A stretch of 64,000 bases of DNA from Bacillaceae bacterium (GTDB lineage: Bacteria; Bacillota; Bacilli; JACDOE01), in contig JACDOE010000008.1 of assembly GCA_017656255.1 (NCBI GenBank), positions 62,001 through 126,000 of the forward strand, in the 5' to 3' direction. How positions within the stretch are numbered: position 1 is the first letter of the stretch; the number at the start of each line of letters is the position of its first letter. Of this stretch, positions 35,366-50,083 are shown piece after piece. A program made the position numbers and the translations under genes. The notes beneath the pieces are model-generated. The model was not told the DNA's origin. It saw only the letters and a program-made list of their open reading frames with translations, and did no database searches.

Positions 35366-36421
35366 ATGACCCGTGAACAGATTGTAAAATTGACCGGCCT
35401 GTCCAGCAAATCGGGATGAGGATGCAAAATTGGTCCGGAGGACCTGGCGCAAGTTTTGCGTCTTTTGCCGAGAAATCCTCAAACTGATCCCAATCTGCTG
35501 GTCGGATTAGATACATCAGATGATGCCGGCGTCTATAAATTAACTGAAGACCTGGCGATCATTCAATCTGTTGATTACTTTACTCCTATTGTAGACGATC
35601 CTTATATGTTCGGGCAAATCGCCGCTTCGAACGCGTTGAGTGATATCTATGCCATGGGTGGAAAACCGGTTACGGCATTGAATATTGTCGGTTTTCCCAT
35701 CAGCAAGCTGGATAAATCTATTTTAACAGATATTTTAAAAGGGGCTGCGGATAAAGTCCATGAAGCGGGAGCGACTATTATAGGCGGGCATTCCATTGAT
35801 GACCAGGAGCCTAAATTTGGAATGGCTGTAACCGGAGTCGCACATCCGGATCGGATTTTGACCAACAGCGGTGCCTGTGTAGGCGATGTTCTGGTTTTGA
35901 CCAAACCGATCGGTGTAGGCATCCTGTCTAAAGCCATCAAAGAAGATTTACTGGATGCAGAGACGGCCCAACTGGCAGCGGAAACAATGGCTCAGCTCAA
36001 CAAAGGTGCTGCGGAAGCCATGGACGGATTAGATATTCATGGATGTACTGACGTCACCGGATTCGGCCTTCTGGGACACGCCAGTGAAATGGCTGAAGGA
36101 AGCGGGGTCGGACTGGAAATTGACCATGACCGCGTTCCGGTACTTCCTCGAACGATGGCATTTGCCGAACAGGGTGTCGTTCCTGGAGGAAGCAAATCCA
36201 ATCACCACTGGTTGCGTGAAAAGGTAAGCTATCCGGATGACATGACACTGGCCGAACAATGGGTATTTTGTGATGCCGTTACTTCGGGCGGGCTTCTGGT
36301 CAGTCTTCCTGAAGATCAGGCGGAAACCTATTTGAAAGCCTTACAGGAGAAGGGTGTCGGGGAGGCTGTTGTCATCGGAAAAGTGGTTGCCGATCATCCA
36401 GGTAAAATCACGTTAAAATAG
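35366..36421 (+). CDS. selD: Selenide, water dikinase SelD, selenocysteine-containing
   Basis: A 351-residue enzyme that makes selenophosphate from selenide and ATP, the donor for both SelA and MnmH. ATG 35366 has CGAGGAGGTGGG upstream. TGA at 35417-35419 is codon 18, in the catalytic SG-U-GCKIGPED motif where other SelDs have Cys or Sec. The frame is then open to TAG 36421 with full AIRS-type domains (LVGLDTSDDAGVY, DVTGFGLLGHA). A frame caller would start too late, at TTG 35456, and lose the active site. A SECIS-like hairpin follows the UGA. Confidence 0.96.
35420..35462 (+). promoter_or_regulatory. Bacterial SECIS element of selD
   Basis: One nucleotide after the UGA a 9-bp outer stem begins: GATGCAAAA (35421-35429) with TTTTGCGTC (35454-35462). 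Above it is a perfect 5-bp mini-stem, GGTCC (35432-35436) with GGACC (35440-35444), capped by the loop GGA. The mini-stem starts 12 nt after the UGA and the loop opens with GG, as SelB-binding elements require. Confidence 0.85.
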
Positions 36422-39954: not shown

Positions 39955-41352
39955 ATGGAAACAAAACAGGACATGTTGCGGAAATTACCCGCTATACATA
40001 AATTAGTGGACCATCCAGAGATTCGGAAATGGATGGATACCGACAGAATCTCGGCCGACTTTATCACACAACTGGCACAACTAGTCGTAGACGATGTCAG
40101 ACACGGGATTCTGAATGAACAGGTTCAATCGATAACCGATGACATGATCATTCGCCGTTTGCATCATCAGATTCGTGAGGTGGTTGAACCCCGGATCAAA
40201 CGTGTAATCAATGGCACGGGAGTTGTTCTGCACACCAACCTGGGACGTGCCGTACTGGCGGAAGAGGCGGTGCGGCAGATCGTATCCGTGGCCCGTTCCT
40301 ATTCCAATCTGGAATACCGGCTACAGGAAGGAAAACGAGGTTCACGGCACGAGCATGTGGAAGAGCTGATCAAGCTGTTGACCGGAGCTGAAGCGGCCAT
40401 GGTGGTCAACAATAATGCGGCCGCTGTTTTTCTGGTCCTCCGGGAAATGGCGCGGCATCAAGAAGTGGTTGTTTCCCGAGGACAACTGGTGGAGATCGGG
40501 GGATCTTTCCGGGTGTCGGAGATTATGAAACAGAGTGATGCGCGCCTGGTGGAAGTTGGCACGACCAACAAAACCCATGTACACGACTATGAACAGGCGA
40601 TTACGGAAGAAACGGCGCTGTTGATGAAAGTGCACACCAGTAACTTCAGGACGGTGGGATTCACCCGTGAGGTCTCGCTGGAAGAGCTGGTGGAACTGGG
40701 GCAAAAATATAACATCCCGGTATATGAAGATCTGGGAAGCGGGGTCATGTATGATCTCGCTTCGAAAGGCGTTGGGGACGAACCGTTGATCCAGGACAGT
40801 ATCCGGCAGGGGGCGGATCTGGTGACGTTCAGCGGGGACAAGCTGCTGGGGGCACCGCAGGCCGGGATTATCGCCGGAAAGAAAAAGTGGATCGACCGTC
40901 TCAAGAAAAATCAACTGGCAAGAGTGCTGCGGGTCGATAAAATGACGCTGGCCGGACTGGATGCTACCCTGCGGCTGTATCTGAACCCGGAAAGAGCCAG
41001 TCGGGAGATACCCGCAATTCGGGATATCGTGGTTGACGTTGAACATATCAGGCAAAAGGCGGAACAATTTGTTTCGATGGTGGAAGGACATTTAGCTGCC
41101 TCTGTCACCGTGGAGGAAGACGTATCCGAGGTTGGTGGCGGCACGTTGCCCGCTGTTACCATCCCCACCGTTGTTGTAGCAATCAGGCCTGAATCGATGC
41201 CGGTCCATCAACTGGAACGCAATCTCCGTTACGGCAGTCCACCGGTCGTCGGAAGGGTCAACAAAGATACATTTCTGCTTGATTTCCGTACCATACCGGA
41301 TGAAGAGGTCGATGAATTGGCCCATGCGGTTCAGCAGGCCTGCCGCGTATAA
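39955..41352 (+). CDS. selA: L-seryl-tRNA(Sec) selenium transferase SelA
   Basis: A 465-residue PLP enzyme that converts seryl-tRNA(Sec) to selenocysteinyl-tRNA(Sec) with selenophosphate. It has an N-terminal tRNA-binding domain, INGTGVVLHTNLGRA near 85-99, and the PLP lysine K296 in TFSGDKLLGAPQAG. Length matches bacterial SelA. AAAGGGAGG precedes ATG 39955. It is followed by the tRNA-Sec gene on the opposite strand. Confidence 0.97.
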   Translation: METKQDMLRKLPAIHKLVDHPEIRKWMDTDRISADFITQLAQLVVDDVRHGILNEQVQSITDDMIIRRLHHQIREVVEPRIKRVINGTGVVLHTNLGRAVLAEEAVRQIVSVARSYSNLEYRLQEGKRGSRHEHVEELIKLLTGAEAAMVVNNNAAAVFLVLREMARHQEVVVSRGQLVEIGGSFRVSEIMKQSDARLVEVGTTNKTHVHDYEQAITEETALLMKVHTSNFRTVGFTREVSLEELVELGQKYNIPVYEDLGSGVMYDLASKGVGDEPLIQDSIRQGADLVTFSGDKLLGAPQAGIIAGKKKWIDRLKKNQLARVLRVDKMTLAGLDATLRLYLNPERASREIPAIRDIVVDVEHIRQKAEQFVSMVEGHLAASVTVEEDVSEVGGGTLPAVTIPTVVVAIRPESMPVHQLERNLRYGSPPVVGRVNKDTFLLDFRTIPDEEVDELAHAVQQACRV

Positions 41353-41440: not shown

Positions 41441-41537
41441 TGGCGGGAGTGGGTGGGAATCGAACCCACCTCGGACGTCACGCGCCCGACACATGGTTTT
41501 GAAGACCAGGGAGGGCACCAGCACCTCATCCACTCCC
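41441..41537 (-). tRNA. selC: tRNA-Sec (anticodon UCA)
   Basis: Read on the minus strand, an 8-bp acceptor GGGAGTGG/CCACTCCC encloses an anticodon loop CTTCAAA with TCA, a long variable arm TCGGGCG-CGTGA-CGTCCGA of 7 bp, and a T arm GTGGG-TTCGATT-CCCAC. Discriminator G and an encoded CCA end it. The 8+5 acceptor-T stack, the TCA anticodon and the giant variable arm are diagnostic of bacterial selenocysteine tRNA. Confidence 0.97.
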
Positions 41538-41610: not shown

Positions 41611-43512
41611 ATGGAACGTCATTATACAATTGGTATTGCCGGTCACATTGACCATGGCAAGACAACACTCACCAGAAAGCTGACCGATGTAGATACGGAT
41701 CGCCTGAAAGAAGAAAAGGAACGCAATATTTCGATCGAACTCGGGTTTGCCCCTTTTTCCCTCCCGGATGGTAAAAGGGTCAGTATTGTTGATGTTCCCG
41801 GACATGAGCGATTTGTTCGCCAGATGATCGCCGGTGTGGCCGGGATCGATCTGGTACTGCTTGTAATTGCAGCAGATGAAGGGATTATGCCCCAGACCCG
41901 GGAACATTCAGACATTTTGCAGTTTCTCGGGGTCAAAAACGGGATTGTGGTGATCACCAAGACAGATCTGGTTGATGACGAATGGTTACAGCTGGTTCAA
42001 GATGAAGTGGAGAACTGGATGAAAGAGACCAGTTTTGCCGATATGCCTGTCATCCCGGTCAGTGCCGAGACCGGCGAGGGGGTTGACCGGCTGGTGGTAA
42101 AAATCCAGGAGATGCTGTCGGATCTGCTGGGACGGGATGCAAGCGGTCCTTTTCGCCTACCGATTGATCGTGTTTTTACCAAAAAGGGAATCGGGACGGT
42201 TGTGACAGGGACGGTTTACCAGGGATCTGTCTCGGAAGGGGACCGACTTGAACTGTTGCCGAACAAACAGGAAGTGAAAGTCCGCCAGGTTCATGTTCAC
42301 AATGAACAGAAAAAACAGGCTTTTGCCGGGCAGCGAACGGCTTTGAACCTTTCAGGCATCGATCTGGAGGAAATCCAGCGGGGAGATACCCTGGTCAGCC
42401 CCGGTTATTTTGAAGCCACCGAGCGGATTGATATCCGTTTTCAGATGCTTAAGGATCTCTCTTTTTCGGTTAAGCAGCGGTCCCGGGTTCGGATTCATAC
42501 GGCCACTTCGGAAGTGATCGGAAAAATCATCTTTTTCGACCGCAATGAACTCCTACCCGGCGATGAAGTCTATGCCCAGCTGGATCTGGAGGAACCGCTG
42601 GTCGTGAAAAAAGGGGACCCGTTCATCCTGCGTCGGCTGTCTCCCGTCGATACCATCGGGGGTGGCCAAGTGCTGGATCCTTATGCGGAAAAATACCGTT
42701 TCGGACAGGCGACGGTTGAAAAGTTAAAACAAAAGGCCCAGGATGATCCGTTATCATCGCTTCGAACATTTATTCAGGATGCCGGATATGCCACCGTTCA
42801 GCAGGCAGCCCGGCATCTGGCCGTCGATGAAGACCAGGTGGCCAAGTGGGTTGAGCAGTTTGTTGAGCAGGGAAGTATTCTGTATTTTGCTGATGAACAG
42901 TATATCGTGGACCGGACCGGCCTGGGACGGTGGGAGGAACAGATACGAAGCGTACTGGAGGACTATCACGAAAAACACCCGATGCGCGCCGGACTTAACA
43001 AGGCGGAGATGAAATCCCGCTATTTTTCAGGCATGCCGGAGAAATTGTGGCATTTGTTTCTGGACTATGAACAGGAACGGGAGTTCCTGCGGAGCCGGGA
43101 TGAATGGGTGTCCCTCTATTCATTTGAGCCTGAAGTGCCCGGTTCGCTGGCAGCGAAAGCCGAACAGGTGGTGCAAAAGATTGAATCGGCCGGGATCAAG
43201 GTGCCGGACTGGAAGGCGGTGGCCGGAGAGGTCGGGATACCGGCAAAGGACATGGACGACCTGAAAAATTACTTGATATACAAAGGGACTTTACTTCCCC
43301 TGACAGAGGATATGGTCATATCCAGACGGGTTTTTGACGAGAAGGTGTCGGAACTGGCGGCCAGCGATGTGGTTAAGCAGCCGTTTACGCCGGCAGAGGC
43401 CAAAACCGTGCTGGATGTCTCACGCAAATATCTGATCCCTTTTCTTGAATTGCTGGATACACAGGGATATACTGTGCGGCATGACAACAAGCGAAAATGG
43501 GTCGGTGCATAA
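41611..43512 (+). CDS. selB: Selenocysteine-specific elongation factor SelB
   Basis: A 633-residue EF-Tu-like GTPase that delivers Sec-tRNA to UGA codons marked by SECIS hairpins. G1 is GHIDHGKTT (11-19), G3 is DVPGHERF, G4 is TKTD. The EF-Tu-like domains 2-3 are followed by four C-terminal winged-helix domains (from about residue 375) that bind SECIS RNA. AAGGAGGATG precedes ATG 41611. It is needed to read both UGA-containing genes reported in this window. Confidence 0.97.
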
Positions 43513-43575: not shown

Positions 43576-43623
43576 ATAGATAACTTTATTTGAGTGTTCG
43601 TCGGCAGGACAGGGGGGAAAAAC

Positions 43624-45432
43624 GTGTGGGATTTGCTGTTTTTAATGCTGGAGCGAATGGGAATTCTCGTTACCATTGCTTTTTTGCTGACCCGTGTGCC
43701 TGTTTTTCGCAATATGCTGCGGAACGGGGATGAAACGATTTGGACCCGGGTCAGACTGATTGTTGCTTTTGGTGTGATGGGGATTATCGGGACTTATACC
43801 GGGGTTCCCGTCGATTCAGAAGCACTGACCCAATTTTTCCCCTCTTATTCACTGTCCGTGGATGAGGCGATTGCCAATGCCCGGGTGGTCGGTGTCGCAA
43901 CGGCAGGCCTTCTGGGAGGTCCGATGATGGGACTGGGTGCCGGCGTTATTGCCGGGCTGCACCGGCTGTCACTGGGTGGGTTTACGGCGTTCGCGTGCGG
44001 TGTCTCTACTATCGTGGAAGGCCTTTTTGCCGGCTGGGTGGGTCGCAAATATGGAAAAGAAGGATTTATCAGTCTGCGTCAGGCCTTTCTCACCGGTTTT
44101 CTTGCCGAGACGCTGCAAATGGTGATTATACTGCTTCTGGCACGTCCCTTCCCGAAAGCCCTGGGCCTGGTGGAAGTGATCGGGGTGCCGATGATCGTGG
44201 CCAACAGTATCGGCATTACGATTTTTATTGCGATTATTAAACTGGTGTATCGGGAAGAGGAACGTTTCGGGGCGTTGCAGGCGCAAACGGCGCTGAAGAT
44301 TGCGGACCGCACGCTGAGTTATCTGCGGCAGGGTCTCAGTCCGGAATCAGCCCGGGCAGCCGCCGGAATCATTCTGGAGGAAACACGCATCGCAGCCGTC
44401 GCCGTGACGGATCGGGAACAGATTCTGGCCCATGTCGGAGTGGGCAGTGACCATCATCATGCGGGGAGCCGCATCCTGACCCGGGCGACCAGGGAAGTGC
44501 TGGAAACCGGTCAACTAAAAGTGGCGAGGTCGCTGGAAGATATCCATTGTTCCTATGATTCCTGTCCGCTGCAGGCGGCCATCATTATGCCGCTTTCGGC
44601 ATCGGGGCGCATTGTCGGCTCGTTAAAGTTGTACTTTTTAAGCAGTAAACAAATTAACTCCGTCAATATCGAACTGGCACGGGGATTGGCCAAGTTGTTC
44701 TCCAATCAACTGGAGTTATCGGAACTGGAACGGCAGGCCCGTCTGGCCAGAGATGCGGAGATCCGTTCGCTTCAATCGCAGATCAGCCCCCATTTTTTGT
44801 TCAATTCGTTGAATACGATTGTCTCTTTATGCCGGACCAACCCGGAGGAAGCCAGGGAACTGTTGATCCAGCTGGGACATTTTTTAAGACAGAATATTCG
44901 TTCTTCAGTCACCTACCAGATCCCCCTGTCAAAGGAAATCGAGCATGTTCAGGCCTATATGGCCATTGAAATGGCCCGTTTTTCCGACAAGATCTTTATG
45001 GAAGTATCGGTGGACGAAAACATTGATGATGTTCGGGTGCCTCCCCTCATTTTGCAACCGCTGGTTGAAAACGCTTTAAATCATGGGGTGCGCCCTTTAA
45101 ACAGAGAAGGCATTGTCTATGTCAGAATCACCAATGTGGATGAAGGGATTCGGGTTGAAGTGATTGATAACGGCAAAGGGATGGAGCCGCAAATCCAGAA
45201 ATCACTACTGGAAGGACCGGTGGATTCGCCCAGTGGGACCGGAACCGGACTCTACAGTGTGCATCAGAGGCTGGTAGGCTTATTCGGCGAACAGTCCGGC
45301 CTCCGGATAGAAAGTGCCCCCGATCAGGGGACAAGCATTTCGTTTACCATCCCAAAAACCGGTAAAGGACAGAAGGTGGTGGCCTATGAAGATTCGTACC
45401 ATGATCGTGGACGACGAGATGTTATCTCGTGA
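43624..45432 (+). CDS. lytS: LytS-type sensor histidine kinase
   Basis: A 602-residue membrane kinase. It has a 5TMR-LYT N-terminal sensor of five to six helices (about 1-200), a GAF-like domain (about 225-360), the His_kinase domain QISPHFLFNSLNTI (phospho-accepting H390) and a HATPase with LVENALNHGV and GTGTGLYSVHQRL. GTG 43624 follows AGGGGGGAAA. It overlaps the regulator gene by 47 nt. LytS and BtsS-type kinases respond to murein or pyruvate signals; the downstream CstA carrier points to pyruvate. Confidence 0.9.
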   Translation: MWDLLFLMLERMGILVTIAFLLTRVPVFRNMLRNGDETIWTRVRLIVAFGVMGIIGTYTGVPVDSEALTQFFPSYSLSVDEAIANARVVGVATAGLLGGPMMGLGAGVIAGLHRLSLGGFTAFACGVSTIVEGLFAGWVGRKYGKEGFISLRQAFLTGFLAETLQMVIILLLARPFPKALGLVEVIGVPMIVANSIGITIFIAIIKLVYREEERFGALQAQTALKIADRTLSYLRQGLSPESARAAAGIILEETRIAAVAVTDREQILAHVGVGSDHHHAGSRILTRATREVLETGQLKVARSLEDIHCSYDSCPLQAAIIMPLSASGRIVGSLKLYFLSSKQINSVNIELARGLAKLFSNQLELSELERQARLARDAEIRSLQSQISPHFLFNSLNTIVSLCRTNPEEARELLIQLGHFLRQNIRSSVTYQIPLSKEIEHVQAYMAIEMARFSDKIFMEVSVDENIDDVRVPPLILQPLVENALNHGVRPLNREGIVYVRITNVDEGIRVEVIDNGKGMEPQIQKSLLEGPVDSPSGTGTGLYSVHQRLVGLFGEQSGLRIESAPDQGTSISFTIPKTGKGQKVVAYEDSYHDRGRRDVIS

Positions 45433-46141
45433 TGAGCTTCGATATCTGATTGATCTGCATGATGATTTTGAAGTCTGCGGGGAGGCATCTACCGCGGTGG
45501 ATGCCATGAAAAAATATCTGGAGATCAAACCGGACGTTGTGTTTCTCGACATTCAGATGCAGGATATGGACGGGATGATGGTCGCCCGGCAGTGGCAGGA
45601 GCAGAAAAATCCACCATTGATTGTATTTGCCACCGCTTATGATGAACATGCAGTGGATGCTTTTGCTGTCAATGCGGTTGATTATCTGTTGAAGCCCTTT
45701 GATAAAAACAGGATTGAGGATACGATCAAGCGGATTCGGCAGATTCTTAATAACGGCAGGAACGGCGCTGAATCAAACGTATCCACCGTTACTCCCCTGT
45801 CCAAAAAAGTAAACAAGTTGATTGTAGAGGATAAAGATCGCACCGTTCTGATTAATCCCGAGGACATTGTCTATGCTTTCAGGGAGGATCGCAGGGTCTA
45901 TTTGAAAACAAACGATCATGTTTACTCCACGCTTTTTTCGTTACAGACTCTCGAAGATAAATTGAGAGAATATCCGTTTTTCAGAACCCATCGCAGTTAT
46001 CTGGTCAATTTGAATATGATTGCGGAAATGATTCCGTGGTTTAACGGCGCTTATAACCTGAGAATGAAGGATGAAGAGGGATCCACCGTCCCAGTTAGCC
46101 GAAACTACGTCAGGGAACTAATGGAAAAACTGGAACTTTAA
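45386..46141 (+). CDS. lytR: LytR/AlgR-type response regulator (LytTR DNA-binding domain)
   Basis: A 251-residue regulator. The receiver domain has phospho-acceptor D55 in VFLDIQMQDMDG and the KPFDKNR loop. A linker leads to a LytTR DNA-binding domain (about 150-250; DIVYAFREDRRVYLKT, FRTHRSYLVNL). ATG 45386 follows AGAAGGTGG, so a longer frame from 45314 is rejected. I infer that it activates cstA immediately downstream. Confidence 0.92.
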   Translation: MKIRTMIVDDEMLSRDELRYLIDLHDDFEVCGEASTAVDAMKKYLEIKPDVVFLDIQMQDMDGMMVARQWQEQKNPPLIVFATAYDEHAVDAFAVNAVDYLLKPFDKNRIEDTIKRIRQILNNGRNGAESNVSTVTPLSKKVNKLIVEDKDRTVLINPEDIVYAFREDRRVYLKTNDHVYSTLFSLQTLEDKLREYPFFRTHRSYLVNLNMIAEMIPWFNGAYNLRMKDEEGSTVPVSRNYVRELMEKLEL

Positions 46142-46286: not shown

Positions 46287-48026
46287 TTGATGAATAGTGC
46301 AGTCATAGCAATTATTGGGATGCTGGTATTCTATCTGGGTTACCGCTATTATTCAAAGTTCATCGCAGAGAAAATCTACCGGCTGGATCCCAATTACGTC
46401 ACACCTGCCCATCAATTTAATGATGGTGTGGACTTTGTGCCAACCAAAAAACACATTTTGTGGGGGCACCATTTCACGTCGGTTGCCGGTGCTGCCCCAA
46501 TCGTCGGACCGGCGATAGCGGTTTACTGGGGATGGCTGCCAGCATTTTTATGGGTTGTTCTTGGAACCGTTTTCGCAGCGGGGGTTCATGATTTCGGAAC
46601 GCTGGTGGTGTCCAATCGCCATAAAGGACAATCCATGGGGACACTGGCTGACCGGATCATCGGGTCAAGAGCCAAGGTCCTGTTTCTGTTCATCATTTTG
46701 ATTCTGGTATTGATGGTTAATGCCGTGTTTGCGTGGGTCATTTCCAAACTGTTTATTTCTTTCCCTGCCAGTGTGTTGCCGGTGTTTATCGAGATTCCGC
46801 TGGCGATCTGGATTGGTAATTACGTATATAAGAAAAAAGGAAATCTGTTGTTGCCTTCCGTGATTGCGCTGGTGATTATGTATGGAACAGCTGTCATCAC
46901 CAGTCAGGTTGAAGCGCTGCAAATCAATCTGCCCCAGTGGTTCGGAGGAGAAGAAGCAAGCCTTCTGTTCGGAATGAATGGGACACAGATGTCCTTCCTG
47001 GTGTGGATTATCGTGTTAATGGTGTATGGATACATTGCGTCCACACTTCCTGTCTGGAAGTTGCTTCAGCCGCGTGATTATATTAATTCACATCAGTTGA
47101 TCATCGGACTTCTGGTATTTTATATCGGATTGTTTATTCTTCATCCGACCATTTCAGCTCCGGCTGTTAACGACGTTTCTGACAAGTCATGGTGGCCGTT
47201 CCTGTTTATCACCATCGCCTGTGGAGCTATTTCCGGTTTCCATGGTCTGGTTTCTTCCGGTACAACTTCCAAACAGTTGGAAAATGAAACGGATGCCCGT
47301 TTTGTTGGATATCTGGGGTCTGTCGGGGAAGGGTTACTCGCCCTGATCTCCATTATTGCGGTTGTGACCTTCTTCGGCACTCAGCAGGAGTTCCTGTCTA
47401 CTTATGAAAGTTTTGCTGCTGCCGGAAGCGCAGGTCTCGGTACGTTTGTCAGTGGTGCGGCGCAACTGGCCACAGGACTGGCTATTCCGCTCAGTGTCGG
47501 AAAGACCATTGTTTCAGTTATCGTCGTCAGTTTTGCAGCGACAACACTAGATACGTCCATTCGTTTGATGCGTTACATTATTGCTGAAATCGGAAAAGAG
47601 TACAAAGTTGAATCTTTAACCGGGAAACATCAGGCTACAACCCTTGCTGTAGTATCCAGTGCGATTCTCGTTCTGTTACCGGGCCCCAATGGATTCGGTT
47701 CCGGTGGTTATCTGCTGTGGCCGCTGTTTGGTACTTCCAACCAGCTACTGGCAGGTATCAGTCTGTTGATTGTTTCCATCTGGCTGAAGAAACTGGGACG
47801 CAATTATCTACCAACCTTGATTCCAATGGTATTCCTGCTATTTGTCACGATCTGGGCGATGTTCAAGCAGGTGTTCGGTACCTGGTTCCTCGGGGCAAAC
47901 GGTACCTGGCATCTGTTTATCCTGGGTGCGATCATTCTGGTGTTTGCCATCTGGATCTTGATCGAAGCTTACTCCGCATTTAATAACCGCAATAATTACA
48001 CGATGGATGACAATCTGAAAGGTTAA
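46287..48026 (+). CDS. cstA: CstA family carrier (probable pyruvate/carbon-starvation transporter)
   Basis: A 579-residue integral-membrane protein of about 15-16 helices. It begins with the CstA signature YRYYSKFIAEKIYRLD and contains HHFTSVAGAAPIVGPAIAVYWGW and SSGTTSKQLENETDARFVGYLG. Family members (CstA, BtsT) import pyruvate or peptides. Its position behind a LytS/LytR pair resembles the BtsS/BtsR-BtsT pyruvate system. The gap before it has TATAAT (46253-46258) without a good -35, as expected for an activator-dependent promoter. AAAAAGGAGG precedes ATG 46287. Confidence 0.9.
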   Translation: MMNSAVIAIIGMLVFYLGYRYYSKFIAEKIYRLDPNYVTPAHQFNDGVDFVPTKKHILWGHHFTSVAGAAPIVGPAIAVYWGWLPAFLWVVLGTVFAAGVHDFGTLVVSNRHKGQSMGTLADRIIGSRAKVLFLFIILILVLMVNAVFAWVISKLFISFPASVLPVFIEIPLAIWIGNYVYKKKGNLLLPSVIALVIMYGTAVITSQVEALQINLPQWFGGEEASLLFGMNGTQMSFLVWIIVLMVYGYIASTLPVWKLLQPRDYINSHQLIIGLLVFYIGLFILHPTISAPAVNDVSDKSWWPFLFITIACGAISGFHGLVSSGTTSKQLENETDARFVGYLGSVGEGLLALISIIAVVTFFGTQQEFLSTYESFAAAGSAGLGTFVSGAAQLATGLAIPLSVGKTIVSVIVVSFAATTLDTSIRLMRYIIAEIGKEYKVESLTGKHQATTLAVVSSAILVLLPGPNGFGSGGYLLWPLFGTSNQLLAGISLLIVSIWLKKLGRNYLPTLIPMVFLLFVTIWAMFKQVFGTWFLGANGTWHLFILGAIILVFAIWILIEAYSAFNNRNNYTMDDNLKG

Positions 48027-48064: not shown

Positions 48065-48098
48065 GAACAGGATCGGGTCACCCCGGTCCTGTTCTTTC
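48065..48098 (+). terminator. Terminator after cstA
   Basis: A 13-bp hairpin, GAACAGGATCGGG with CCCGGTCCTGTTC, around a short loop, followed by TTTCCT. It separates cstA from the selenoprotein cassette, although a TATAAT (48102-48107) just after it has no visible -35. Confidence 0.85.
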
Positions 48099-48171
48099 CT
48101 ATATAATAGATATAAAGAACGGGACAGTTTCCGGTGTCATATTAGTTGTGAACCCGGCTGGAGGTGAAAGC

Positions 48172-48609
48172 ATGCAACCTGTGCATGTCCTGATGGTCAG
48201 GGAAGTGGATGCCCAGCATACAGGAAGCGGCTGATGCGGACGCATGTCCGGAGGTGAAGGTTTCACCTTTAGCGATCCGTCGTTATTTGCCGAGCAACGT
48301 CGAATCATGGAAGAGATGGGTATTTTGTACCGGGCGTTGAAGCATGAATTTGAAGATCAAGTGGAACTGGAAATGATTGATCCGCGCAATTCGATTTCAT
48401 TTGTTTATACTTTAATAAAAGTAGGAAGACGAAATGGTCTGCCCTGGAAAATAACATTTCGGTCCCTGACCCGGGGATTTAATACGATCGCTGTGTTTGT
48501 AAACGGAGAACTGGTCGCACAGGGAAGAGTACCGAAGGTAGCGGAGGTTCGAGAACGGATTGTTTCGATTTTGAACGGGGAAAAGGAGGGAAGTGGCCGT
48601 GGGCATTAA
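48172..48609 (+). CDS. Thioredoxin-fold, ArsD-like selenoprotein (Sec21), unnamed
   Basis: A 145-residue protein read through TGA 48232-48234 as selenocysteine. ATG 48172 has a perfect GGAGGTGA site, while the ATG after the UGA (48244) has none. The N terminus is a strand (VHVLMVREV) leading to the redox site TGSG-U-CGRMSG, an adjacent Sec-Cys pair. The C-terminal half, FVNGELVAQGRVPKVAEV, resembles the ArsD pattern DGExVxxGRxPxxxEL, and ArsD has STGVCG at the matching site. So it is likely a chaperone or reductant for a thiophilic metal or metalloid. It overlaps the next gene by 11 nt. NCBI uses a family name 'SaoT' for thioredoxin-like (seleno)proteins; I cannot check membership. Confidence 0.86.
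48250..48270 (+). promoter_or_regulatory. Bacterial SECIS-like hairpin of the ArsD-like selenoprotein
   Basis: AGGTGAA (48252-48258) pairs perfectly with TTCACCT (48262-48268) around the loop GGT. Two further G-U pairs extend the stem. The loop opens with GG and starts 24 nt after the UGA, inside the window accepted for bacterial SECIS elements. A smaller CGGAC/GTCCG hairpin lies between UGA and stem. Confidence 0.8.
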
Positions 48610-48862
48610 AGAACAGTGGGATAAGTTGATGGCATTTTATGAAGAGATGTTTATGACCCCGTATCGGTCGGCGGTAAAACGGGAAATACGGGATGAGGAT
48701 GATCTGTTTCTGTTTCTCTGTTTTTCGGAGATGCTGGGGCTGCCTAATCCGGTTTCTTATTATACGTTGGAGTTGTATCCGCTGGTGTATGAACGGTTTC
48801 ATGAGTGGCATAAGCGGATGGGGATGGAGAAGTCGCCGTTGGATGGGATACGATGCTGCTAG
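48599..48862 (+). CDS. Cory-CC-star type small protein (C-terminal Cys-Cys)
   Basis: An 87-residue, mostly helical protein with a conserved-looking core (YEEMFMTPYRSAVKREIRDE, LGLPNPVSYYTLELYP, FHEWHKRMGMEKSPLD) that ends in Cys-Cys directly before the stop. I recognise this layout as the family called cory-CC-star protein, found beside ArsA-type ATPases. GTG 48599 is 9 nt after AAAGGAGGG (GTG 48593 is the alternative), and it overlaps the selenoprotein gene by 11 nt. The two terminal cysteines are its only cysteines after the FLCF pair region, and suit binding of soft metals. Function is not established. Confidence 0.8.
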   Translation: MGIKEQWDKLMAFYEEMFMTPYRSAVKREIRDEDDLFLFLCFSEMLGLPNPVSYYTLELYPLVYERFHEWHKRMGMEKSPLDGIRCC

Positions 48863-48963: not shown

Positions 48964-48988
48964 AATTTGGGCTTTCGCCCAAATTTTC
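48964..48988 (+). terminator. Terminator-like hairpin in the repeat region
   Basis: AATTTGGGC-TTTC-GCCCAAATT is a perfect 9-bp stem followed by TT. It lies between the large palindrome and the tandem repeats, so it may end the two-gene transcript. Confidence 0.65.
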
Positions 48989-48998
48989 CATTTGTGGG

Positions 48999-49126
48999 CC
49001 TGCCCTCGCTTCGCTTGTGCGGGCTTTGTTTCTCTGATGGGTCCTGCCCTCGCTTCGCTTGTGCGGGCTTTGTTTCCCTGATGGGTCCTGCCCTCGCTTC
49101 GCTTGTGCAGGCCTTTGTTTAATCTA
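48999..49126 (+). repeat. 44-bp tandem repeat, about 2.9 copies
   Basis: Units start at 48999, 49043 and 49087 with near-identical sequence beginning CCTGCCCTCGCTTCGCTTGT. Each unit contains a hairpin (GCCCTCGC with GTGCGGGC, one mismatch) followed by TTTGTTT, so the array looks like serial weak terminators. The period is not a multiple of three and has no spacers, so it is neither coding nor CRISPR. It fills the 291-nt gap (48863-49153), in which I see no gene. Confidence 0.9.
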
Positions 49127-49153: not shown

Positions 49154-50083
49154 ATGAAGGCTTATCTGGACAAGAAGGTGCTTTTTTTTGGCGGGAAAGG
49201 TGGGGTCGGCAAGACGACTTCAGCTTCTTCGTTTGCGGTCGGGGCGGCGAAGAGGGGGAAGAAGACGCTGCTGGTGTCGACGGATCCGGCTCATAATACC
49301 GGGGATATTTTTGATCGGCCGATCGGCGGGAAGGAGACGCCGATTGCGGAGAATCTGTGGGCGATTGAAATTGATCCGCATGTGGAATCGCATCGTTATA
49401 TCAACCAGGTGAAAGATAATATCCGGCAGGTGGTCAGTTCGAGGATGCTGGAAGAGATTAACCGGCAGATCGACGTTGCCAGTGTGTCGCCCGGTGCGGA
49501 AGAAGCGGCGCTGTTTGACCGGCTGGTGGACCTGATTCTGGAAGGGCAGGATGCCTACGATCTCATTGTGTTTGATACCGCGCCGACGGGACATACGATT
49601 CGATTGCTGTCGCTTCCGGAATTGATGGGCGTGTGGGTGGATGGCATGTTAAGCCGCCGGCAGAAAACGAATGAGATGAATGCCTGGTTAAATGACGGGG
49701 AAGAACCTCCGGACGATCCGATCTATGAGGTGCTTCAGCGCCGCAAAAACAAGTTTGCCCGGGCACGTGAAATTCTGCTGGATCCGTCCCGGACTTCTTT
49801 TATCTTTGTCATGATCCCAGAAAAGCTGCCGATGGTCGAAACCAAAAAGGCGATTGCCATGCTTCAAAAACATGGGATTCCCACCGAAACGATTATCGTA
49901 AACCGGGTTCTGCCGGATGATGTGGTTGATCCCTTTTTTCAAAAAAGAAAGGAACAGGAGAAGAGGTATTTGGAACAGATGAAAGAGATGTTTGCCGAAC
50001 AACGCCTTCATTATATTCCGATGATGGAACATGACATCTATGGGATGGACGCCCTGTTGAAAATAGCGGGCCATTTGTTATAA
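49154..50083 (+). CDS. ArsA/GET3 family ATPase lacking cysteine
   Basis: A 309-residue SIMIBI-class P-loop ATPase with deviant Walker A GGKGGVGKTT (about 13-22), switch I STDPAHN, switch II FDTAPTGHTIRLLSLPEL and the nucleotide-binding NRVLPDD. It is a single half-length unit, so it should dimerise like GET3. There is no cysteine anywhere, so neither ArsA metal-site cysteines nor the GET3 zinc CxxC exist. ATG 49154 follows GGAGAGGGGG. With the CC-star and Sec-Cys proteins upstream, I infer that those supply the metal ligands. The family name SaoA (ArsA-related) may or may not apply. Confidence 0.88.
   Translation: MKAYLDKKVLFFGGKGGVGKTTSASSFAVGAAKRGKKTLLVSTDPAHNTGDIFDRPIGGKETPIAENLWAIEIDPHVESHRYINQVKDNIRQVVSSRMLEEINRQIDVASVSPGAEEAALFDRLVDLILEGQDAYDLIVFDTAPTGHTIRLLSLPELMGVWVDGMLSRRQKTNEMNAWLNDGEEPPDDPIYEVLQRRKNKFARAREILLDPSRTSFIFVMIPEKLPMVETKKAIAMLQKHGIPTETIIVNRVLPDDVVDPFFQKRKEQEKRYLEQMKEMFAEQRLHYIPMMEHDIYGMDALLKIAGHLL

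Follow-up and report, generated by a model that had tools for sequence, protein, structure and literature searches.

A probable selenoprotein family with a vicinal selenocysteine-cysteine pair, encoded in CstA-family transporter operons of Bacilli

Could a UGA codon inside a small gene behind a CstA-family transporter be read as selenocysteine (Sec), and what might the resulting protein do? The gene lies in a 64,000-nucleotide stretch of a Bacillaceae genome (GenBank assembly GCA_017656255.1, contig JACDOE010000008.1, positions 62,001 to 126,000), the whole of which is called the window here. The original prediction placed an overlooked selenoprotein at 48172-48609, with a well-spaced ribosome binding site, 20 codons, an in-frame UGA, and 124 open codons behind it, and each of these elements was confirmed on the sequence. 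The frame opens at ATG 48172 and runs through 20 codons to TGA 48232-48234, followed by UGC, 123 more sense codons, and TAA 48607-48609. It encodes a 145-aa protein, laid out as MQPVHVLMVREVDAQHTGSG-U-CGRMSGGEGFTF...DPRN...NGELVAQGRVPKVAEV, in which the UGA is codon 21 and a Cys follows immediately. A frame caller would instead choose ATG 48244, the nearest ATG past the UGA, giving an open reading frame (ORF) of 121 aa; as predicted, this start has no ribosome site. Relatives of the gene likewise carry a purine-rich site ahead of a start upstream of the UGA.

48160 to 48167, plus strand: ribosome binding site GGAGGTGA, with the ATG 4 nt on (sequence)
48172 to 48609, plus strand: gene for the vicinal Sec-Cys protein, 145 aa, UGA read through (frame plus homologues)
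48232 to 48234, plus strand: putative Sec codon UGA, residue 21, with the Cys codon at 48235-48237 (Cys in relatives)
48250 to 48270, plus strand: SECIS-like hairpin, 9 bp including G-U pairs, loop GGU (covariation in relatives)

The genes of the window stand in the order selD, selA, tRNA-Sec (minus strand), selB, LytS-type sensor, LytTR regulator, cstA, the Sec gene, cory-CC-star (cory), and arsA. SelA, SelB, SelD, and tRNA-Sec had been claimed for the window from the sequence alone, and model searches located all four.

35366 to 36421, plus strand: SelD, with an in-frame UGA at 35417-35419 (SKSG-U-GCKIGPEDL; model match and frame)
39955 to 41352, plus strand: SelA (TIGR00474, 594.6 bits)
41441 to 41537, minus strand: tRNA-Sec (RF01852, 68.8 bits)
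41611 to 43512, plus strand: SelB (TIGR00475, 379.6 bits)
43594 to 45432, plus strand: LytS-type sensor kinase (domain matches to 5TMR-LYT and His_kinase)
45386 to 46141, plus strand: LytTR response regulator, BtsR/LytR-like (BtsR the best model, below cut-off)
46287 to 48026, plus strand: CstA-family transporter gene, the upstream neighbor (Pfam PF02554, E 3e-150)
48599 to 48862, plus strand: cory-CC-star, overlapping the end of the Sec gene, with a C-terminal Cys-Cys (NF041419, 134 bits against a cut-off of 80)
49154 to 50083, plus strand: ArsA/GET3-like ATPase, single domain, without cysteine (TIGR00345, 315 bits)

With its in-frame UGA, SelD is itself read as a selenoprotein, so the SelD ORF that begins at 35456 falls short of the full gene; behind this UGA stands a hairpin of 5 bp with loop GGA. 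The formate dehydrogenase of the source genome also has an in-frame UGA (NRT-U-HAPS).

A single-sequence search with the window Sec protein against viral and genome contig collections returned no match; the source genome is the sole representative of its family and order in the genome collection searched. The family was reached through its neighbor cory, by way of the DNA ahead of cory in 400 class genomes and then by alignments and profiles. The first two homologues came from genomes G022 and G205: the former has UGA-UGC (SNSG-U-CG) and a TTG start after GGAGGTGA, and the latter, the nearest Cys relative, has Cys-Cys at the same place (SNSG-CC-G). A profile search within the class Bacilli identified the family in 12 of 400 genomes and recovered further Cys-Cys members, and another 47 Cys-Cys loci were found in species genomes of Gemmatimonadota, Actinomycetota, Salinisphaera, other Pseudomonadota, and one planctomycete. 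The third UGA copy lies on plasmid NZ_CP089998 of Cytobacillus spongiae (GMG-U-CGG), where the RefSeq annotation covers only what follows the UGA, as a hypothetical protein of 95 aa, and names the neighbors "carbon starvation protein A" and "cory-CC-star protein." A different order of the class, searched in 399 genomes, yielded 26 strong members, of which about half have UGA.

We collected 17 intact UGA copies, the window copy included, and the UGA version of the family is known from at least 17 genomes or records. All of these copies encode U-C-G at the same site, as TGA-TGY-GG. Cys-Cys takes the place of U-C in about 65 relatives from Bacilli, Gemmatimonadota, Actinomycetota, Pseudomonadota, and Planctomycetota, and about 80 relatives keep the protein sequence encoded ahead of the UGA. 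The check proposed for the original prediction, homologues that keep Cys or Sec at residue 21 together with the N-terminal strand, thus came out in its favor. Residues that are invariant or nearly so across the family are R10, C/U21, C22, G50, D70-P-R-N73, and G112. When 82 members are placed in a tree, the Sec and Cys versions intermix within clades and require four or five changes, five being an upper figure, as one UGA row (L140) was entered as Cys; such mixing is what would be expected for Sec/Cys exchange at one functional site. Both SelB and tRNA-Sec were found in the three UGA genomes or records tested (the source genome, G022, and C. spongiae). In the source genome (G000) and G022, SelB scores above the cut-off and tRNA-Sec near 69 bits, and in C. 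spongiae selB and tRNA-Sec lie on the same plasmid as the UGA copy. Three genomes with Cys copies (G205, G195, and G312) yielded no SelB above the cut-off and no tRNA-Sec of similar strength.

Several individual copies deserve mention. An eighteenth UGA copy, L147 (G1125, at 1592), has an additional TAG, is seemingly broken, and is excluded from the 17; L058 (G347) is a decayed copy that reads SGCYG and ends early. All Cys members of family f198 (L122, L124, L126-L128, L131, L133, L137, L138, and L141) have a third Cys four residues on (GCCGGIC or GCCGGVC), which the Sec members lack, as if the extra Cys compensated for Sec.

The hairpin behind the UGA had been predicted as 7 bp beginning 17 nt past the codon; it is present and extends to 9 bp with G-U pairs, with arms GGAGGTGAA (48250-48258) and TTCACCTTT (48262-48270) around loop GGT. 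It lies directly downstream of the UGA with a G in the first two loop bases, the arrangement expected of a SECIS element. A stem of at least 9 bp by the same rules follows 1.0% of all TGA triplets in the window (at least 7 bp, 4.2%), so the window hairpin by itself is weak proof. Comparison among the UGA copies is more telling. Bacillus-like copies have CTGATGA-CGGGT-TCATCAG or GTGRTGA-CGGGT-TCATCAC, G022 has GGGTGA-GGTCC-TCACCT, and the window copy has GGAGGTGA-AGGTT-TCACCTTT. Across 16 distinct sequences, 98.2% of cells are paired versus 87.9% after shuffling, with 0 of 500 shuffles reaching as high; two-sided changes, including C-G/G-C swaps, occur at three of the seven pairs, and slid pairing partners score far worse than the true register. 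A 7-bp stem by the same rules was found in only 4 of 54 Cys copies. Ahead of the stem, Ser is encoded by TCT in some copies and by AGT in others, changing in step with AGN or ACN behind it, and this coupling points to selection acting on the RNA. A search of Rfam at the window hairpin gave no family and one chance snoRNA match.

The recurrence of UGA-UGY-GG in 17 genomes or records, its replacement by Cys in about 65 relatives, and the covariation of the hairpin place the selenoprotein reading far beyond chance, and from these comparisons Sec insertion at UGA 48232 is very likely. The codon would be decoded by the organism's own SelB and tRNA-Sec by way of the downstream hairpin. If translation instead stopped at the UGA, the actual gene would be the 121-aa ORF from 48244, or else a pseudogene. 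This is the choice that gene callers make here and that RefSeq makes in C. spongiae, but against it stand the protein-level conservation ahead of the UGA, the Cys at the corresponding codon of relatives, the frame that stays open in all 17 UGA copies, the covarying hairpin, and a start at 48244 that has no ribosome site; we regard it as barely credible. The exchanges between UGA and Cys and the covariation of the hairpin led us to reject a stop-codon reading, an altered code, and a broken gene alike.

What kind of protein this is was approached through its fold. The AlphaFold2 model, built with 43 sequences, has a pLDDT of 85.8 overall, with its worst values (53-61) in the Sec loop. Its best structural matches in the PDB are ArsD and then thioredoxins, ArsD 3kgk being the best solved structure (E 2.7e-3, probability 0.99, TM 0.56 by target length and 0.39 by query). 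The modeled fold is ArsD/thioredoxin-like, and the likeness to these proteins in the original prediction holds at this level. It does not hold at the level of family: the NCBIfam ArsD model does not match the Sec protein, whereas R773-type ArsD scores 135.6 bits, and hhalign of the family against an ArsD alignment matches just the last 34 columns, at 56% probability. ArsD (NF033727; PDB 3kgk and 3mwh) shares with our family a thioredoxin-like fold, vicinal Cys after strand 1, a C-terminal NGExVxxGxxP-like motif, and a gene that adjoins an ArsA-family ATPase. It differs in having Cys12, Cys13, and Cys18, of which 12 and 13 are invariant in the ArsD alignment, where our family conserves only U/C21 and C22, a pair of uncertain correspondence to Cys12-Cys13 or Cys18, and in belonging to arsenic resistance rather than a CstA operon.

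Other known families are more distant. The ArsD-related vicinal cysteine protein VcpD (NF047871) also has vicinal Cys, and Cys relative L043 aligns over most of its model, but at 17.9 bits against a cut-off of 90, and the window protein has no match. Thioredoxin_3/MTH895-ArsE (PF13192, TIGR00412) weakly matches the last strands of the Sec protein, below cut-offs; Sec proteins of the CxU and UxC types are known in the PF13192 domain (PMC13188914), whereas the protein here is longer and its U and C are adjacent. No model in Pfam or NCBIfam (June 2026) covers the family, for which Thioredoxin_3, TIGR00412, and VcpD are the weak best matches, and PDB sequence searches with the Sec protein gave chance matches only. 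"Hypothetical protein DG" (motif GUxG, NF049953), considered as a possible earlier report, had no match in the NCBIfam scans and was compared by model only. None of the 119 prokaryotic families of selenoproteins in a 2026 inventory (PMC13188914) fits, and KCU-star/DUF466 is the sole entry there that can be related to CstA operons. Because no NCBIfam or Pfam model covers it, ArsD is related in fold only, and the inventory lacks it, we take this as a new selenoprotein family in a new place within a known transporter system.

The gene order cstA, Sec or Cys gene, cory, arsA recurs in G022, G205, C. spongiae, Gemmatimonadota, Actinomycetota, and Salinisphaera and at all but one of loci L122-L148. 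In a distant Cys clade (L053-L057), cstA is the sole adjoining operon partner and arsA is absent, which makes cstA the constant partner; members away from cstA are L050-L052 and L143. Cys members L050-L052 and L058 stand alone near EF-Tu/EF-G or acyltransferase-like genes. Since the family occurs in 12 of 400 class genomes versus 45 of 400 for cory, and is therefore absent from most cory genomes, the transporter can function without the Sec/Cys protein. The C-terminal Cys-Cys of cory is present at 88 of 88 loci, and a single Cys of CstA is invariant (33 of 33; residue 312 of the CstA in the window).

The gap that separates cstA from the Sec gene holds a terminator-like hairpin of 13 bp (48065-48094), and strong hairpins occupy this gap in many relatives; how much transporter is made relative to helper may be set there by read-through or attenuation. 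Near-identical tandem units of roughly 60 bp (GGGTCCTGCCCTCGCTTCGCTTGTGCGGGCTTTGTTTC...) fill window positions 48980-49120, between cory and arsA. The source genome has a second cstA-cory-arsA cluster (L032, G000:C9:27000-33500) in which cstA and cory have no Sec/Cys gene between them; it lies a few kilobases from a formate dehydrogenase gene with an in-frame UGA. In L055, L056, and L057, the pair formed by cstA and the Cys-Cys gene lies near selA, with selD also near in L055 and L057; selA, selB, selD, and cstA are clustered in the window too.

The original prediction, which suggested a metallochaperone or reductase, overlooked the operon. An operon of cstA, cory, and arsA indicates the CstA transporter rather than arsenic, and judging from gene neighborhoods the Sec protein is probably a helper of the transporter encoded directly upstream. 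That it would act on CstA by thiol chemistry is somewhat favored. The many cory genomes that lack the gene, the members that stand apart from cstA, and the low pLDDT of the Sec loop count against this reading. Accessory proteins of this transporter family offer a parallel. DUF466/KCU-star (NF033934; YbdD/YjiX of E. coli) is likewise a small CstA-type accessory with Cys-Cys or Cys-Sec depending on the species, but it is an unrelated small protein with the pair at its extreme C terminus, and its counterpart here is cory-CC-star, not the Sec gene. E. coli YbdD is a DUF466 member. Pyruvate uptake by E. coli CstA requires YbdD (PMC5847655), and natural Cys-Sec C termini occur in the DUF466 family in Campylobacterales (PMC4607533). 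The excerpted account of CstA-CstX-ArsA operons (PMC2963123, Castillo and Saier 2010) shares with the present operon its transporter, its small partner, and an ArsA homologue of one domain; it names CstX and CstY, with no selenoprotein or thioredoxin-like member in the excerpt.

The Sec-Cys pair is placed in the loop after the first strand of the predicted fold, where most relatives have Cys-Cys. Most likely, this soft dithiol or selenothiol would exchange disulfides with, or pass a soft ligand to or from, the invariant Cys-Cys tail of cory, a CstX/YbdD-like partner, and the invariant Cys of CstA is perhaps a second thiol partner. Such a step might mature, protect, or gate the transporter, with the ArsA-like ATPase driving or timing it. 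That a (seleno)thiol relay of these parts (the Sec-Cys protein, the cory/YbdD Cys-Cys tail, the CstA Cys, and timing by the ArsA-like ATPase) runs or gates CstA-family transporters is offered as a tentative possibility.

Two other functions are weighed against a role as CstA helper. An ArsD-like metallochaperone would bind As(III) or another soft metal at its Sec-Cys pair and deliver it to the ArsA-like ATPase, and CstA would serve as the pump; this would suit the ArsD structures that best match the fold, the ArsA-family ATPase in the operon, and the one Cys relative with weak, nearly full-length likeness to VcpD. ArsA binds As(III) via Cys. The ATPase of these operons has no conserved Cys, however, and none at all in 42 of 77 cases, which makes a classical As(III) hand-off unlikely and demotes this explanation; nor were arsR or arsB seen beside the operon within the window, the ArsD profile match is confined to the C-terminal part, and relatives L053-L057 sit beside cstA without arsA. 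Alternatively, a general thiol-disulfide or peroxide-reducing enzyme may simply be a passenger in the cstA operon. The fold is thioredoxin-like, certain Cys copies have no cstA nearby, and redox catalysis is a frequent use of Sec (PMC13188914), but the vicinal C-C differs from the CxxC of thioredoxins, and the linkage to cstA, cory, and arsA is tight over several phyla. We consider this improbable as well.

With a firm comparative case, the family adds to the selenoprotein inventory an entry that it lacked, present in many Bacilli, whose genes are currently truncated or overlooked by annotation. The Sec/Cys exchanges pinpoint the residue pair of interest, and selenium becomes linked to a widespread nutrient transporter that has a small partner protein and an ATPase. 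Taken together with the Cys-Sec tail of DUF466, the family suggests a central role for thiol chemistry in CstA transport. If the relay is true, selenium would have been recruited independently into two unrelated accessories of one transporter family, DUF466 elsewhere and the Sec-Cys family here.
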